DNA of 46,342 bases from Anoxynatronum buryatiense (lineage in GTDB: Bacteria > Bacillota > Clostridia > Peptostreptococcales > Tindalliaceae): assembly GCF_900182905.1 (NCBI RefSeq), contig NZ_FXUF01000021.1, forward strand, positions 1 to 46,342, written 5' to 3'. This document shows, piece after piece, positions 1,991-13,162 of the stretch; position 1 is the first letter of the stretch; every line of letters starts with the position of its first letter. A program made the position numbers and the translations under genes. Under the pieces are notes generated by a model. That model was not told the origin of the DNA. It ran no database searches and was given only the letters and a program-made list of their open reading frames with translations.

Positions 1991-3658
1991 CTATTTATAA
2001 TTGGGATCCAACAACGTAATAACCCCTAGAATCACCATGCCAATGAAAATAACAATCCCCCCATACGCCATGGAGATACCGATGTCATAATCATGCAATG
2101 CATTGACCATGGCAATTGACACGGGTCGGTTGTGCACGCCATATAACAGAGCTGAAATGGTGTATTCTCCCAAAGAACGCATAACCACCAGGGAAAAAGC
2201 GCTGATAATACCGGCTGATACCATGGGCATAAACACATGAATAAAGGTCTGCGTTCTGGTGGCCCCCAAGTTTCGGGAAGCTTGTTCGTATTCCCGATTA
2301 AAGTTTTCGAAGGCGGAGTAAATGCTTTTTGATGCAATGGTGATCCCTGCCAACACATAGGTAATGGGAAGAATCCAGTAAGTGCCAATCAGTGACTGGT
2401 TGAACAGAAACCACTGACGTCTGTTGAATGCCAAAATCATGTTAACTCCCAGGGTACTGGCAGGGATTGCCATGGGCAGCAACACCAAAAAATGCAGCCA
2501 CCGTGAAACCATCCCTTTGTTTCTGAGAACTAAGAACGCGCTGACAGCACCAATGGCAGTGGCCATGAGTCCAGCCTGCAAAGACATTTTCAGCGAGTTA
2601 ATGATAGGATCCAGCACCCGTGGCTGAGCTAGAATACGCCGATAGTTTTGCAGCCCAAACTCAGAAGGAATAATCTCAGTCATCCAACGGCTGGAGTCTG
2701 CAAAAGAAAGAATCATCACACCCACAATGGGCACCATAATCAACGCAGTGATGATCCCCGCCACCAGATGCATGGTTCCTCTTGCCACAGGATGCCGAAC
2801 CCGCACCCGACGAAACTTTTTTGTTTTTGTTGTGCGGGACTGAAAGCTCTGATGATTGTAATAGCTGTACAAGCCCATGGTCATAAACACTAACACCATG
2901 AGCAGGGTCACCTGAGCTGCTGCCATGCTCATCTGGTTGTTCATTTTTGAATGAAGAATCTGGGTACTCATCATTCGATAGCCGCGACCTATGAGGTAAG
3001 GTGCAGAAAATGAACTGACCCCCGTAGCAAAAGTCATGAGGGCCGATGTCACCAAGGCCGGGGCCAGGTGGGGCAAGAGCACATCCTTAAAGACCTGCCA
3101 ACGGGACGCGCCCAGATTTCGGGCCGATTCCACCAGGGAGTAATCGATAAAAGCAATGGCAATTTTCGTGTTGATGTAAAAATAAATATACTGGGTGAAA
3201 CTGTGAACAAATAAAATACCCCAAAACCCGGAAAATCGCAGGGGTGGATTTACGAGGTGAAAAGCAGTCTGCAACAGGTGGTTGATAATCCCCATTTCAG
3301 CATATAGCTGAATAAAGGCAATAACAATCATCACACCGGGCAGCATCACTGCACTGAGCATCACCATGTGAGTCAGACGCTGAAAAGGCGTTTTGAAATA
3401 ACTGGTATAGAATGCCATCGACACACCCACCACCAGGCAAGCTGCCACCGTGAAAATACCCACTGTAATGGTATTGCGCAGAGCCATGAGATTGGTAGGG
3501 GTTGAAAAAAAATGAACATACCAATGGAAAGAAAATCCCGATCCATCATATTGCAAAGAACGCCAGATGGTGTTACCAATAGGGAAGACCACAAAAACAG
3601 CCACCAGATAAAAAAGCAGGGTATACACCAGGCTTTTAATCACTTTGTCCCTGTTCAT
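1991..3658 (-). CDS. ABC transporter permease, fused two-domain (FbpB/PhnU-like)
   Basis: A 555-residue membrane protein with two binding-protein-dependent permease modules in tandem, each with several membrane spans. Each half carries an EAA-type loop that contacts the ATPase: ESARNLGASRWQVFKDVLLP in the first half and EQASRNLGATRTQTFIHVFM in the second. Fusion of both permease halves is typical of the iron (FbpB), thiamine and 2-aminoethylphosphonate importer families. The start ATG overlaps the stop of the ATPase gene by four bases (ATGA), implying translational coupling. With the upstream lipoprotein and ATPase it forms a complete importer. The substrate cannot be fixed from the permease. 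Confidence 0.92.
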   Translation of the reverse strand: MNRDKVIKSLVYTLLFYLVAVFVVFPIGNTIWRSLQYDGSGFSFHWYVHFFSTPTNLMALRNTITVGIFTVAACLVVGVSMAFYTSYFKTPFQRLTHMVMLSAVMLPGVMIVIAFIQLYAEMGIINHLLQTAFHLVNPPLRFSGFWGILFVHSFTQYIYFYINTKIAIAFIDYSLVESARNLGASRWQVFKDVLLPHLAPALVTSALMTFATGVSSFSAPYLIGRGYRMMSTQILHSKMNNQMSMAAAQVTLLMVLVFMTMGLYSYYNHQSFQSRTTKTKKFRRVRVRHPVARGTMHLVAGIITALIMVPIVGVMILSFADSSRWMTEIIPSEFGLQNYRRILAQPRVLDPIINSLKMSLQAGLMATAIGAVSAFLVLRNKGMVSRWLHFLVLLPMAIPASTLGVNMILAFNRRQWFLFNQSLIGTYWILPITYVLAGITIASKSIYSAFENFNREYEQASRNLGATRTQTFIHVFMPMVSAGIISAFSLVVMRSLGEYTISALLYGVHNRPVSIAMVNALHDYDIGISMAYGGIVIFIGMVILGVITLLDPNYK

Positions 3659-7905: not shown

Positions 7906-8005
7906 CAATGCTACCCCTAATTGTCAAAAAAGCCGATGTCACGTGAATCGATTCGGCGCTAAAGTTACTTGCAGTAAAAACTGTCTTAAGAAAGGGATTG
8001 AGTGC

Positions 8006-9076
8006 ATGGACAAAAAACAGATAGTGTCAGCAGTGGTTCTGGTGGTCCTGACTGTGGGTATACTCTTCAACTTAAATGCTATGAACGCCAATGTTTCAGC
8101 GGATGCTGCAAGTTATGAAGTGACAGCGGAAGGTTACGGCGGTCCTATTCGTCTTATGGTCTACGTTAAAGACACAGAAATTGTCAACATTGAACTCTTG
8201 GAGCAAAATGAAACTCAAAACATAGGAGACAAAGCAGTTGATGAGATGATAGCAAAAATTCTTGAAAAGCAATCTGCAAATGTTGACGTACATACCGGAG
8301 CGACAGTATCTTCCAATGCAGTCATCTCTGCGGTAAATCATGCCCTTGCTGAAGCAGGTGTGCCCCTGGAGGGAGCTGGTGCAGCTCGCGAGGAGACTGG
8401 TGACGAACCTTCCGCTGACGCTGACTATGAGGCTGAAGGAATCCTTGCCATTGGTTCGGGATACGGCGGAGACGTTGTCCTTGATGTTGTGATGGATGGT
8501 GAGGAAATAGTAAACATTAAGTTGCTGGATCAAAACGAAACAGGAAATCTTGGAGATGTGGCAATTGATGCCATGATTAAGAAAATTCTCCAGGCTCAAA
8601 GCCCTGATGTAGACGTTGAATCCGGAGCTACGGTTTCGTCTCAAGCTGTTATTAAGGCTGTGGGTACGGTCACCGGTCAACAGATATCTGAGGCTGAAGC
8701 ACCCCAAGACCCTGCTGCAGCATATGATCTGGAATCTTATGAGCCGGAAGGGATCTTGGTGTCTGGCAAGGGATTTCAAGATCGTTATGACATCTATATG
8801 GACGTCATCTTTAACGGAAGCGAAATTGCAGAAATTCGCGTTATTGAACATAGGGAAACCAAAGGATTTGGTGACGGAGCATTAAGAGTAGTACCGGAAA
8901 GAATCGTTAACCAGCAAACCACCGAGGTTGATGTACAGACCGGCGCAACATGGACTTCGAATGCTGCGATGAAAATTGTTCAACAAGCAGTTGAACATGC
9001 CGGGGTATCACTTGCAGAACGTAAAAATGGAGAAGTTTCAGCGCCAACGGCGAGTAGCAGTGGAGGCGGCACCTGA
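8006..9076 (+). CDS. Membrane-anchored protein with three FMN_bind domains
   Basis: A 356-residue protein. Residues 6-24 form one membrane anchor, so the rest faces outside. Three FMN_bind repeats follow, at about 35-118, 140-222 and 247-333. Each ends in a flavinylation motif, TGATVSS (Thr100), SGATVSS (Thr209) and TGATWTS (Thr315), where ApbE-type transferases attach FMN covalently to threonine, as in NqrC and RnfG. A Ser/Gly tail ends the protein. I start it at ATG 8006, preceded by AAGAAAGGGATTGAG, not at the upstream in-frame ATG 7943 that lacks a ribosome site. It likely passes electrons outside the membrane to or from the selenoprotein encoded 105 bases downstream. Known relatives include extracellular electron-transfer flavoproteins such as PplA. 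The partner assignment is inference. Confidence 0.92.
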   Translation: MDKKQIVSAVVLVVLTVGILFNLNAMNANVSADAASYEVTAEGYGGPIRLMVYVKDTEIVNIELLEQNETQNIGDKAVDEMIAKILEKQSANVDVHTGATVSSNAVISAVNHALAEAGVPLEGAGAAREETGDEPSADADYEAEGILAIGSGYGGDVVLDVVMDGEEIVNIKLLDQNETGNLGDVAIDAMIKKILQAQSPDVDVESGATVSSQAVIKAVGTVTGQQISEAEAPQDPAAAYDLESYEPEGILVSGKGFQDRYDIYMDVIFNGSEIAEIRVIEHRETKGFGDGALRVVPERIVNQQTTEVDVQTGATWTSNAAMKIVQQAVEHAGVSLAERKNGEVSAPTASSSGGGT

Positions 9077-9181
9077 TAGACCTCTGTCTGCGGGTTCGTA
9101 GACATAATTGATTGCTCTGCTAAAAGCAAATTTATCCAGAATCACATCTTCAATATCCTTATCAAAAGGGGAGGGTCACAT

Positions 9182-9856
9182 GTGGGTGACGAAATGAAAA
9201 ACATAAGCCGAAAAGACTTTTTAAAGAAGATGGGTACCACCGTTACAGGAGTTGCTCTTCTGGGAGGAATGGGCAGTATTCTCACGGCATGCAGTGAAGA
9301 AGAGATGACCGAAGCAGCGGTGCAAATGGGACTGGATCCGGAACAGGTTCAATATCCGGTTCCTTATGTAAGAATTGATCCCGACAAAGCTGCAGAAAGA
9401 GCCTATAAGTATTATAAAGAAAAAGGTGGCTGAGGTGTTGGTACAGCCGAAGGTCTTTTCGGCTACTTAGCGGAAGAGGTAGGTTACCCTTATAACCAAA
9501 TCCCCACGATGATGTATCGTTCTTTTGCTGGTGGATTTGCCCTGGAAGCTTCTTTATGCGGAACACTTGCAGTGGCCGCCGGTTTTATCGGTTTAGTTGC
9601 CGGTGACAAACAGAATGTATTGGTAAAGGAACTTTTTGATTGGTACAAACTTGCAGAACTGCCAGTATATAACCCAGACTACCCTGACCACGCCATTACT
9701 GTTGCCGAATCCACTTTGTGCTATGATTCGGTTTCTAAATTTATTGAAAAAGAAGGGGTCGCTTTTGGCTCTTCTGAACGATCCAGCCGCTGTGCCGGTG
9801 TTGCTGCAGAAGTTGTTCGCACAACTGCAACAATCTTAAACCGAGAACTAATTTAA
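9182..9856 (+). CDS. C_GCAxxG_C_C family selenoprotein, exported (UGA = Sec at codon 84)
   Basis: A 224-residue protein if the in-frame TGA at 9431-9433 encodes selenocysteine. The frame continues without a break for 141 codons to TAA. The UGA falls where family members have their first redox cysteine (KEKGG-U-GVGTAEGLF). Later conserved parts follow: SLCGTLAVAAGFIG, LCYDSVSKF and SSERSSRCAGVAAEVV. A SECIS hairpin lies right behind the UGA. The N-terminus has a Tat-like signal (SRKDFLKKMG, one arginine replaced by lysine) and a lipobox LTAC with Cys37, so the protein is probably exported and lipid-anchored. Start GTG 9182 has GGGGAGGG seven bases upstream; ATG 9194 is too far from it. Partner is probably the triple FMN_bind protein. 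The redox reaction is unknown. Confidence 0.88.
9445..9464 (+). other. Bacterial SECIS element
   Basis: AGCCGAA and TTCGGCT form a perfect 7-bp stem around the loop GGTCTT. The GGTCT starts 18 bases after the UGA. In Escherichia coli fdhF the loop motif GGUCU also starts 18 bases after its Sec codon. Loop sequence, stem and spacing all match what SelB recognises. Confidence 0.88.
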
Positions 9857-10038
9857 CAAAAGAAGCATATTTAAAGCTGAAGAAACAGCACCAGTTAACT
9901 ACTGAAACGTCCGCCCAAAACTCTCATCAATCGATGGAAGCTTTGGTCGGACTATTCTTTTTTACGTCCAAAATCTTCATAAGGCTGTTAATTCATTGCG
10001 CGGGCAAGGGAAACATCTCCCTTTCCCTCTTAATCCTC

Positions 10039-10091
10039 CCGAAGATGGGTATATCCTTACTATCAAAAAGGTCAAGGAGTGTGACAAATGA
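10039..10091 (+). repeat. Direct repeat copy B, leader of the M20 peptidase gene
   Basis: The functional copy of the repeat at 6808-6864. It contains the ribosome binding site AAGGAG and the ATG of the M20 gene. A GAAAC-type hairpin repeat lies shortly upstream (10010-10029). The rest of 9857-10087 shows no gene. Confidence 0.6.
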
Positions 10092-11332
10092 TCAAAGCAA
10101 CAGACTATTTCCAGCGCCAAGAGTTAATCGACCTCACCAAAGACCTGCTTCGCATCCCCAGTCACACAGAGGTGGCGACCCAGGAAAAAGAAATAGCCGC
10201 CTATATGCTGGCATTTTTCAACAGGCACGGCATACAAGCTCATCTTCAACATGTGGAAAAAGAGCGGAGCAATGTGATTGCCTTCATCAAAGGGAAAAAA
10301 TCGCCGGAAGGAAAAAGCCTGATGCTCAACGGGCACATTGACACTGAAAAACCGGATGATATGAATGAAGACCTGTTTGGTGCCGAAATGAGTTCTTCAA
10401 ACATGTTTGGTGGAGAAGTCAGGCAGGGATATATCTGGGGCAGGGGGGCCGTGGATATGAAGGGCCCCGTCGCTGCCATGATGATGACGCTGGTGGTATT
10501 AAAGCGGGCAGAGCAGGAGCTGGACGGCGACATCGTTTTTTCCGGAGTGGTGGGTGAGGAAACCCGCAGCAAAGGCATGGAAAGCCTTGTGGCCTGTGAA
10601 AAATGTCTGAGTCAGCATGATATTGCACTGGATGGCGCCGTGGTGGGTGAACCCACCGACTTTCAATATGTGGCCAGCCACCGTGGCTTGGTATGGCTGG
10701 ACATCAAGTTTAAGGGTAAAGGAGCCCACAGCGGCAAACCTCATCAAGGCGTCAATGCCATCGAAAAAGCCGTCGCGTTTTTGAACATCGTCAAAGAGGA
10801 ACTATATCCCAAATTACGGGAGCGCAGGCATGATTTTATGGGCACCTCTGTGATGAATATTGGTACCATCAAAGGAGGCACCGGCCAGTCAACAGTGGCG
10901 GAGGAAGCCCTTGTGAGGCTGGACCGCCGCTATGTGGAAGGAGAAACCCTGGATTCTGTCATTCAGGAATACCAAGACATTGCCAACAAAATGACTCAGG
11001 AAGATCCCAGCTTCAGCATTGAAATCAGCCGCACACCAGAAAGCGTTTCGGTACTGCCCCATCCGCCCCTTCATACAGAGATGGATGAATCCATCGTTTT
11101 GGCCGTTAAGAGGGCCCTCCAGCAGGTGCTGGGGCACGAGCCGGAAGTACACACAGAATATGGCTGGACAGACGGTGCACTGATCTCCAAATACATGAAA
11201 ATACCCACCGTGGTCTTTGGTCCTGGCGACATTGCACTGGCCCATACAGCAGAGGAAAAAATTGATATCGACGACCTGGTGAAAAGTGTGGAAGTGTACA
11301 CCCATATCGCCGACGAATTTTGTGTGTTTTAG
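10088..11332 (+). CDS. M20 family zinc peptidase/deacylase (ArgE/DapE-like)
   Basis: A 414-residue enzyme. Zinc ligands and catalytic residues are in place: LNGHIDTEKP (His83, Asp85), WGRGAVDMKGPVAAM (Asp123), VVGEETRSKGM (Glu157/Glu158), VVGEPTDFQYV and a C-terminal GDIALAHTAEE histidine. The dimerisation domain lies at about 195-310. Members hydrolyse N-acyl amino acids or small peptides in the cytoplasm; the exact substrate is not evident. It could relate to the 5-oxoprolinase genes nearby, since both handle acylated or cyclised amino acids, but that is speculative. The ATG follows CAAGGAGTGTGACAA. Its stop overlaps by four bases the stop of the convergent GyrI-like gene. Confidence 0.92.
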   Translation: MIKATDYFQRQELIDLTKDLLRIPSHTEVATQEKEIAAYMLAFFNRHGIQAHLQHVEKERSNVIAFIKGKKSPEGKSLMLNGHIDTEKPDDMNEDLFGAEMSSSNMFGGEVRQGYIWGRGAVDMKGPVAAMMMTLVVLKRAEQELDGDIVFSGVVGEETRSKGMESLVACEKCLSQHDIALDGAVVGEPTDFQYVASHRGLVWLDIKFKGKGAHSGKPHQGVNAIEKAVAFLNIVKEELYPKLRERRHDFMGTSVMNIGTIKGGTGQSTVAEEALVRLDRRYVEGETLDSVIQEYQDIANKMTQEDPSFSIEISRTPESVSVLPHPPLHTEMDESIVLAVKRALQQVLGHEPEVHTEYGWTDGALISKYMKIPTVVFGPGDIALAHTAEEKIDIDDLVKSVEVYTHIADEFCVF

Positions 11333-11799
11333 CAGAGAATCGGTACCACCATCTGGGTCAACAGTTCACTCTCAGAGCGGTTTTCATCATTTAGATAATA
11401 ATGGTATATACCGCCTTGTTGCTCATACCCTTGTGCTGCGATCCACTGCAAAATTTCCATCATCAACGGGTCGGTATCCGTGTATGCGCCTAAAAAAATG
11501 CCTGTCACCACTTTCCGGGCAGGGATAACAGATCCCCCAATATCACCTTCCCCTGTCATTGGTTTAGCAACAGGAAAGCCCATTTCCACATCCAGATTCG
11601 CAAGATCAACATTATGAAAGCAGACAAATGGACCGCCGGAGAACAGCAGACCGTTTCGATCTGCATACGCCATTATTTTCCCATAGGCTTGCCCGGCAGT
11701 ACTTGGGTAATCATCGAAATGGATGGTGGTGCGAATTGACAGAACATGCTGCTCCGGTTGCTCAAATAGGTTTATCTTTGAAATGATTGCCACATTCAT
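11329..11799 (-). CDS. GyrI-like small-molecule-binding domain protein
   Basis: A 156-residue stand-alone effector-binding domain of the GyrI/SbmC superfamily. It has the pattern HVLSIRTTIHFDDYP, an AGQAYGKIMAYADRNG helix, then DVEMGFPVAKPMTGEGDI and a C-terminal GGIYHYYLND segment, matching the two SHS2-like modules. Stand-alone members bind or hydrolyse small hydrophobic compounds. It starts 10 bases after the AraC-type regulator gene on the same strand and has its own GAGGAGGTAATGA ribosome site, so the pair forms an operon in which both products carry GyrI-like domains. Ligand unknown. Confidence 0.82.
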   Translation of the reverse strand: MNVAIISKINLFEQPEQHVLSIRTTIHFDDYPSTAGQAYGKIMAYADRNGLLFSGGPFVCFHNVDLANLDVEMGFPVAKPMTGEGDIGGSVIPARKVVTGIFLGAYTDTDPLMMEILQWIAAQGYEQQGGIYHYYLNDENRSESELLTQMVVPILC

Positions 11800-11809
11800 T
11801 ACCTCCTCA

Positions 11810-13162
11810 TTATTTCCTTTTTATCCCTCTTCGAATGGCGATACATTGCTTAACATCCTCCAACACTGCATCCTCTGTCACATGAATCATAAGCCACTTC
11901 TGGCCCATACCGATTTTCGTTTCATGATACAACTGCTGGAGGTATTCTGTGAAAAATGGGAGCATCATTTCGGTCTCTGCCCGTTCGCGTTCGCCAATCA
12001 CAATGAGGGCAATAAAAGATCCCTCCATGGGATAGAGGGTGCACAAAGTACGACCAGCCTTTTTATACTTCACATTCCATCCATGCTGCATGGAACATCC
12101 GCTGTATTCCAGCACCGGTTTGCTCTGATATGCCGTCTCCACATACGTACACAATTGTTCCCATAACGGGCTATTCACATACTGACTGATGGTTTCTGGT
12201 GACGGCTTCTGTGTTCCGTTGCTTTTATCCCACGTTTCCCGCCTTCTCATCTTCTTTTGCGATGCACTTAACGGTATCCACTGTTCCATATAACTTGCGT
12301 CAGGACTCTTACCGTCATACAACTCCACCACGAAATCACCACAATCCAGGCTGTGCTTTTTCATCCAACCGCTCATGAATGCGGCCGCTTTGAAAACTGC
12401 AGAACCGATCAACTCTTCAAAATTTTTCGCCTCAAAACAGCAAACAACATAGTCGCCACAAGGAAGCGTGTAAGAAGTATATCCCATTGTCTCCACATCT
12501 CCGGCCGTTTCGGCTCCGGCCATGTAGGTACAGCAGCCTTCTCTGGCATCTCCCATATACAGAACACCGCACTCATTGCCATTCGGAAGCAAATGTGGAA
12601 GGCTCATTTTTTGACGGTGAAAGTCGTCCCATATGATCCCTGTGGTGGCAATGCCGGTGGTTTTGCCACCAGCCAATTCCGTAACAGGTACTTCGCCTGC
12701 AATTCCGATAAAAGTGCGCGGTTGATTCAGCCTTCTGCGAGTTACTTCAACGACGATTCCATCTGCAATCAACGGTACATCTTCGTCGACCATAACATAG
12801 TTTAAAAGCAGGTCCGGTTTGATAAATTGATTGAGGATCACAGGTCGATCCCGATATTCCTTCGGTGTCATGCCGTAAAGCTCTTTAAACGTTCGGGTAA
12901 AATTGGCATGGTCTGAAAATCCACAATTAAGCGCCACATCGATAATGCGTTTTTCTTTATTTTTAAGTTCTTCCGATGCTTTTGCCAGTCTGCGCAACTT
13001 CACATACTCTTGAACCGATTTCTTTACCAGGCGCCGAAACAGGCGCTGAAAATAGTATGGTGATAAATCTGCCACACTGGCAAGAATCTCGATTTTAATG
13101 TCTTCCGATAAACTTTTCTCTATGTAATCCAGCGATTTTTGTATGGCTTCCCATGCGTGCAT
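11810..13162 (-). CDS. AraC-type regulator with GyrI-like and DUF3788-like domains
   Basis: A 450-residue protein with three parts. Residues 1-110 are an AraC DNA-binding domain (two helix-turn-helices: SPYYFQRLFRRLVKKSVQEY and DVALNCGFSDHANFTRTFKE with the closing YGMTPKEYR). Residues about 125-285 form a GyrI-like effector domain. Residues about 300-450 resemble DUF3788 (LEYSGCSMQHGWNVKYKKAG, RTLCTLYPMEGSFIALIVIG). The ATG is preceded by GGGAGGAGGTGAGTAG. The N-terminal position of the DNA-binding domain is usual for Rob/SoxS-related GyrI fusions. It probably senses a small hydrophobic or cationic compound and controls itself and the GyrI-like gene behind it. The ligand is not known. Confidence 0.88.
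   Translation of the reverse strand: MHAWEAIQKSLDYIEKSLSEDIKIEILASVADLSPYYFQRLFRRLVKKSVQEYVKLRRLAKASEELKNKEKRIIDVALNCGFSDHANFTRTFKELYGMTPKEYRDRPVILNQFIKPDLLLNYVMVDEDVPLIADGIVVEVTRRRLNQPRTFIGIAGEVPVTELAGGKTTGIATTGIIWDDFHRQKMSLPHLLPNGNECGVLYMGDAREGCCTYMAGAETAGDVETMGYTSYTLPCGDYVVCCFEAKNFEELIGSAVFKAAAFMSGWMKKHSLDCGDFVVELYDGKSPDASYMEQWIPLSASQKKMRRRETWDKSNGTQKPSPETISQYVNSPLWEQLCTYVETAYQSKPVLEYSGCSMQHGWNVKYKKAGRTLCTLYPMEGSFIALIVIGERERAETEMMLPFFTEYLQQLYHETKIGMGQKWLMIHVTEDAVLEDVKQCIAIRRGIKRK

Follow-up and report, generated by a model that had tools for sequence, protein, structure and literature searches.

An internal UGA that very probably encodes selenocysteine in a probably exported protein of Anoxynatronum buryatiense related to split-Soret cytochrome c

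The stretch of DNA analysed here, which we refer to as the window, is a contig of 46,342 nucleotides (NZ_FXUF01000021.1, contig C21) in the 4.16-Mb genome of Anoxynatronum buryatiense (assembly GCF_900182905.1). A preliminary description, made from the letters alone, had noted an in-frame TGA at 9431, and our analysis bears this out: when TGA is translated as selenocysteine (Sec, U), a single frame runs from 9182 to 9856 (Table 1). The number of sense codons following the UGA is 140, one less than the 141 first counted. Conventional ORF calling splits the gene into two short frames, 9182-9433 and 9509-9856, as had been anticipated. The start codon is likely the GTG at 9182, because the box GGAGGG lies 6 nt ahead of it and because it aligns by eye with an ATG start behind GGAGG in two homologues (L029 and L031). 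A five-codon frame from ATG to TGA (window positions 9180-9197, with ATGA at 9194) overlaps the start region of the gene and may be due to chance.

Table 1. Coordinates of the candidate selenoprotein gene, its elements and the upstream neighbour in the window
Feature	Position	Strand	Remarks
FMN_bind neighbour gene	7943..9076	+	directly upstream; hydrophobic N-terminus, three FMN_bind stretches
Ribosome-binding box GGAGGG	9170..9175	+	6 nt 5' of GTG 9182
Probable selenoprotein gene	9182..9856	+	224 aa, U84; GTG start, TAA stop; one frame with TGA read as U
Tat-like motif SRKDFLK	9206..9226	+	R and K in 24/24 rows of alignment A1
Lipobox L-T-A-C (C37)	9281..9292	+	Cys in 22/24 rows of A1; absent in L022 and L023
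UGA, probable selenocysteine codon (U84)	9431..9433	+	in frame; same column in homologues
SECIS hairpin	9445..9464	+	conserved stem of six pairs inside 9446-9463; GGTCTT loop at 9452-9457; outermost A-U pair weak
Cys126 (CG motif)	9557..9559	+	conserved
Cys180	9719..9721	+	conserved
Cys204	9791..9793	+	conserved

With the base composition of the window, 141 open codons would arise by chance with a probability of about 9e-4. The open frame alone is thus weak evidence, and it is conservation that decides. We searched the taxonomic order with the protein and obtained matches in 24 of 297 genomes, which make up 37 match rows. Exactly one in-frame TGA is present in 31 of these rows; one row has a TAA (a C-terminal fragment), and the five rows without a stop comprise L052, which is a full Cys paralogue, a pair of pieces from a single copy in genome G079 that lacks the Sec segment, and two short C-terminal pieces. 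The UGA stands at the Sec column in all 28 of the 31 TGA rows that were read (the other three are L050, G030:C63:29528 and G028:C13). A search of the phylum gave 91 match rows from 53 of 398 genomes. The 12 best rows below the window's own have one TGA each, and the corresponding loci (L059-L070) carry it at the Sec column; the next 17 loci (L071-L087) have Cys at this column in 16 cases and Sec in one (L086). These 29 rows and the window's own were read at the column, and among the remaining 61 an in-frame TGA occurs in 11, one of which also contains a TAA. The homologues at greater distance, among those read, have Cys at the column. All homologues read carry either UGA or Cys at this position, with the exception of one copy from which the segment is deleted. 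Locus L051 (G079:C42, near 2496-3020 on the minus strand) is a tandem copy in which the stretch containing the Sec site is deleted and the frame is left open. A search of plasmids with the selenoprotein gave no match.

The UGA is followed by a hairpin with a stem of 7 bp and the loop GGTCTT, and the distance from the UGA to GGTCT is 18 nt. This spacing equals that of the Escherichia coli fdhF SECIS element, measured on NC_000913, whereas the stem sequence is different. The bacterial SECIS (bSECIS) model places G at the first two loop positions and the loop 16-37 nt from the UGA (PMC13188914); the window hairpin, with a loop that begins with GG 18 nt past the UGA, agrees with both features. Among the relatives, the first two Gs of the loop are invariant and the other loop positions are not. 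An alignment of 38 of the 39 Sec sequences (L086 was excluded) gives 228 cells for the six inner pairs, 222 of them paired and six unpaired; the outermost pair is unpaired in 22 of the 38 sequences. The fdhF-like geometry given in the preliminary description holds for the spacing, but its seventh base pair is not conserved. The Cys paralogue L052 cannot pair at two of the six inner positions.

Both sides of the stem have changed together at three inner pairs: three sequences have C-G for G-C, six have G-C for A-U and two have U-A for G-C. None of 500 shuffles reached the observed number of cells with changes on both sides, the percentage of paired cells or the covariation score; the number of pairs changed on both sides was matched in 20 of the 500 shuffles and the number of pair types in 214, and kinship among the sequences inflates all such counts. 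In 27 Sec genes, third-position identity at conserved residues was 0.81 in codons +5 to +9 and 0.40-0.62 in the non-overlapping bins, a plain comparison without a significance test in bins that were chosen after the hairpin had been seen. Overall, the hairpin shows both protection of its synonymous sites and covariation. The fold of the single sequence is ordinary (z of -1.08, with 30 of 200 shuffles equally good), and an Rfam search of window positions 8500-10500 gave no match.

The genome contains the complete machinery for selenocysteine insertion. The preliminary description had pointed to selA, selB, selC and selD, and all four were found: a tRNA-Sec gene scored 73.4 bits, above its cut-off, and in a profile search of the genome SelB, SelA and SelD scored 390, 600 and 365 bits, respectively, each above its cut-off. 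The tRNA-Sec, selA, selB and selD genes all lie inside one 14-kb stretch. The GrdA gene of the same genome has an in-frame UGA of its own, in a CFVU context. We conclude that the internal UGA is very probably read as selenocysteine; SelB with Sec-tRNA would bind the fdhF-like hairpin 3' of the UGA at 9431, leading to the insertion of Sec84. Two other readings of the UGA were weighed against this one. If it were a genuine stop, the locus would be a pseudogene or would encode two small proteins, with the downstream frame open by chance. An ordinary ORF listing does split the gene, and the single-sequence fold is not significant, but the UGA, the downstream protein and the hairpin are conserved across many genera, and no ribosome-binding box was seen by eye ahead of the ATG at 9509. 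We rejected this reading as highly improbable in view of the three conserved elements. A code in which UGA specifies a standard amino acid throughout the genome, for which we found no supporting point, is less credible still and was rejected on account of the complete Sec machinery; that TGA ends 11 of the 26 long ORFs of the window is a weaker argument against it, because these were called with table 11.

A tree was made of 57 rows (40 Sec and 17 Cys), in which the root serves for drawing only. It leaves aside L025, L026, L027, L030 and L032, which share contigs with L019-L023, as well as L050, the fragment L053, and L055-L057, which are three further PF09719 proteins encoded in the genome. 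The Sec/Cys label requires three changes on the tree (three to four on bootstrap trees), against a mean of 14.8 for shuffled labels. The Cys member L052 falls inside a large group of Sec proteins, whose support is 90/93 (not starred), and L086 stands apart from this group. The gene selB is present in 33 of the 36 genomes with a Sec form (missing from G049, G058 and G464) and in 15 of 16 genomes picked for stop-free homologues, 14 of which were read as Cys (the other two are G681 and G354). Since selB is equally common in both sets, the use of Sec is apparently settled protein by protein. At L086 (genome G403), Sec occupies the same column amid a Cys group and the downstream hairpin is different; this looks like an independent gain.

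The protein passed the Pfam cut-off for PF09719 (C_GCAxxG_C_C), with 37.8 bits against 27, and missed that of TIGR01909, the C-GCAxxG-C-C (seleno)protein model, with 13.3 bits against 47.4. The family assignment made at the outset stood for PF09719; the motif of the protein, though, is U-CG-C-C and not a literal GCAxxG, and split-Soret cytochrome c is a closer relative of the protein than typical members of the family are. With the split-Soret model NF047622 it scored 123.2 bits, short of the cut-off of 400. Homologues with CxxCH pairs also stayed below this cut-off, five of them Sec proteins (150-183 bits) and one a Cys protein (163.5 bits). The only solved relative found by sequence is the split-Soret cytochrome c of Desulfovibrio desulfuricans ATCC 27774 (PDB 1h21, E of 3.4e-24), and U84, C126, C180 and C204 each align with a Cys of this structure. 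A predicted model, built with C in place of U (pLDDT 80), matched 1h21 with a Z of 25.1 and an rmsd of 2.7 over 175 aligned residues; the next row of the structural comparison had a Z of 5.6. Sequence and predicted fold together suggest that the body of the protein corresponds to the N-terminal, helical domain of split-Soret cytochrome c and lacks the diheme tail found at the C-terminus of the latter, and that Sec84, Cys126, Cys180 and Cys204 would occupy the four conserved Cys places of that fold. The protein of entry 1h21 is a diheme protein whose iron centre is unusual, and the title of the entry names a novel iron centre. The statement that the UGA replaces the first redox cysteine of the family is supported by the homologue alignment as far as the Cys column is concerned; the word redox is unproved, the solved relative being titled for an iron centre.

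The window protein differs from 1h21 in having Sec for the first Cys and in the heme tail: it has no C-terminal CxxCH motifs. Of the tree's 17 rows with Cys, 13 have two CxxCH motifs and one has a single motif. Sec and two C-terminal CxxCH motifs occur together in L063, L065-L070 and L086, and of these L063 and L065-L070 are apparent selenium-containing c-type cytochromes. Little has been published on the Cys relatives. In D. desulfuricans, expression of the cytochrome is lower under NO (PMC5701242); a relative in Pyrodictium is associated with the cytochrome b subunit of formate dehydrogenase (PMC8105010); and split-Soret mutants of Desulfovibrio alaskensis showed no fitness phenotype (PMC4215793).

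The protein is likely exported, and the Tat route is our best guess from its N-terminus. Of the two export elements first proposed, the lipobox is supported by homologues, but the motif is not a twin arginine: R-K stands in its place and R-R is absent (Table 1; alignment A1 has 24 rows and excludes L021). The second residue varies elsewhere, with R-T in L021, R-G in L060, R-E in L070 and a twin arginine in L062 and L064-L068, and this greater variability of the motif lowered our confidence in the overall explanation given below. The TAT signal model TIGR01409 was absent among the matches of the protein at E values up to 1. A tatC gene is present in the genome on contig C2 (locus L112 of G000:C2, around 8493-12259 of that locus). 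Its neighbours encode a nitrate-reductase-delta-type chaperone and a molybdopterin oxidoreductase. Judging from the signal, the lipobox and the tatC genes near the gene in relatives, the protein would be exported in the folded state, most likely via Tat, and lipid-anchored at Cys37. Selenocysteine outside the cell had been called uncommon. Exported selenoproteins are less rare than this implies, and they include formate dehydrogenases and NiFeSe hydrogenases.

We also compared the surroundings of the gene at 21 loci, namely the window and 20 relatives drawn from the genomes of 36 relatives with the Sec form. The clusters found near the gene, named after their representatives, were YeeE/YedE (14 loci), LysR (14), TusA (13), TatC (10) and FMN_bind (8), counts that come from mutually related loci without control neighbourhoods. 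In the closest kin of the window, this recurrence is mostly missing. The set resembles the selenium/thiosulfate uptake genes YeeE/YedE and TusA with a selenium-type LysR, and these neighbours recur at 13-14 of the 21 loci. The resemblance is incomplete, however: YedE mostly consists of two separate proteins here, the representative LysR scored 234.8 bits on the selenium-metabolism model NF040786, below the cut-off of 250, and YeeE/YedE lies away from the selenoprotein gene in the window's own genome. There the YeeE/YedE halves are found on contig C5 by a rhodanese-type gene, with another on C1, and of the recurrent neighbours the FMN_bind gene alone adjoins the selenoprotein gene. YeeE/YedE is absent from seven of the 21 loci, five of which are the window and L088-L091; among the five loci fetched from the closest clade of the window, only L092 has it. 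FMN_bind is near the gene at 8 of 17 heme-less and 0 of 4 heme-bearing loci, a difference that is not significant (Fisher 0.13). The adjoining FMN_bind protein is a possible electron-transfer partner. ApbE, the enzyme that attaches flavin to FMN_bind-type domains, is encoded twice in the genome.

Taken as a whole, an exported Sec lipoprotein with a split-Soret-like fold and a site formed by Sec and three Cys is, in our judgement, the probable explanation of the locus. Its parts differ in strength. With somewhat less assurance, we favour the view that an iron or iron-sulfur centre is bound by Sec84 together with the three Cys and is tuned by the selenium; the iron ligands in 1h21 would be the aligned Cys positions. 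Alternatively, Sec84 might be a metal-free catalytic selenol that forms a selenenylsulfide with one Cys, in a surface reductase of the peroxide or disulfide type. Pfam describes the PF09719 family as putative redox-active, and a 2026 review considers redox functions likely for most uncharacterised selenoproteins (PMC13188914), but the four Cys/Sec positions are conserved jointly and match the Cys of a protein whose structure title announces a novel iron centre, so that a metal-free selenol seems to us rather unlikely. Returning to the metal site, the protein lacks a heme tail, and its electrons might tentatively be supposed to pass to or from the FMN_bind proteins encoded next to it. The recurrence of YeeE/YedE, TusA and LysR beside the gene in relatives led us to propose a job at the cell surface, the reduction or delivery of a sulfur or selenium compound; this is a guess, and we grade it low because the window's own clade is where the association with YeeE/YedE is weakest. 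The full chain, in which Sec is a ligand of the split-Soret iron centre in a heme-free surface protein which, in electron exchange with covalent flavins, reduces an external sulfur or selenium compound for import by YeeE/YedE-TusA, is a long shot.

How much of this is new has to be judged against what is already catalogued. WP_012158890.1 is presumably a protein of Alkaliphilus, a genus near the relatives of the selenoprotein. C-GCAxxG-C-C (PF09719) selenoproteins, with this accession, are listed in two reviews, the later of which distinguishes two forms (PMC9312934, PMC13188914). The present clade could accordingly be the published "C-GCAxxG-C-C family protein form 2", with little new past annotation, a view that is compatible with our explanation and to which we assign slightly less than an even chance. 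Against it, the main text of the paper cited for form 2 does not contain "GCAxxG" (PMC2398784), and we found no open-access paper that links split-Soret cytochromes to selenoproteins. The main texts of both reviews do not contain the word "Soret" (PMC9312934, PMC13188914). Sec in the PF09719 family is thus already catalogued, and the exported, split-Soret-like clade is a variant that is moderately new.

For annotation, two ORFs that had been split wrongly become a single conserved selenoprotein family, one of whose Cys relatives has an experimentally solved structure. Natural members of the Sec/heme-less, Sec/diheme and Cys/diheme types allow a possible role of selenium at a metal site to be examined by comparison, and part of the clade gives the split-Soret family a genomic tie to the transport of sulfur and selenium. 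If Sec is indeed an iron ligand, the series of Sec, heme and flavin within one family would show selenium tuning or replacing an extracellular metal site. No NCBIfam model reached its cut-off on the window protein, and such genes may for this reason stay mis-annotated. A further gene of the window, at 10088-11332, encodes an M20 hydrolase that scored 185 bits on the model of the selenium-linked hydrolase YgeY, for which the cut-off is 321.
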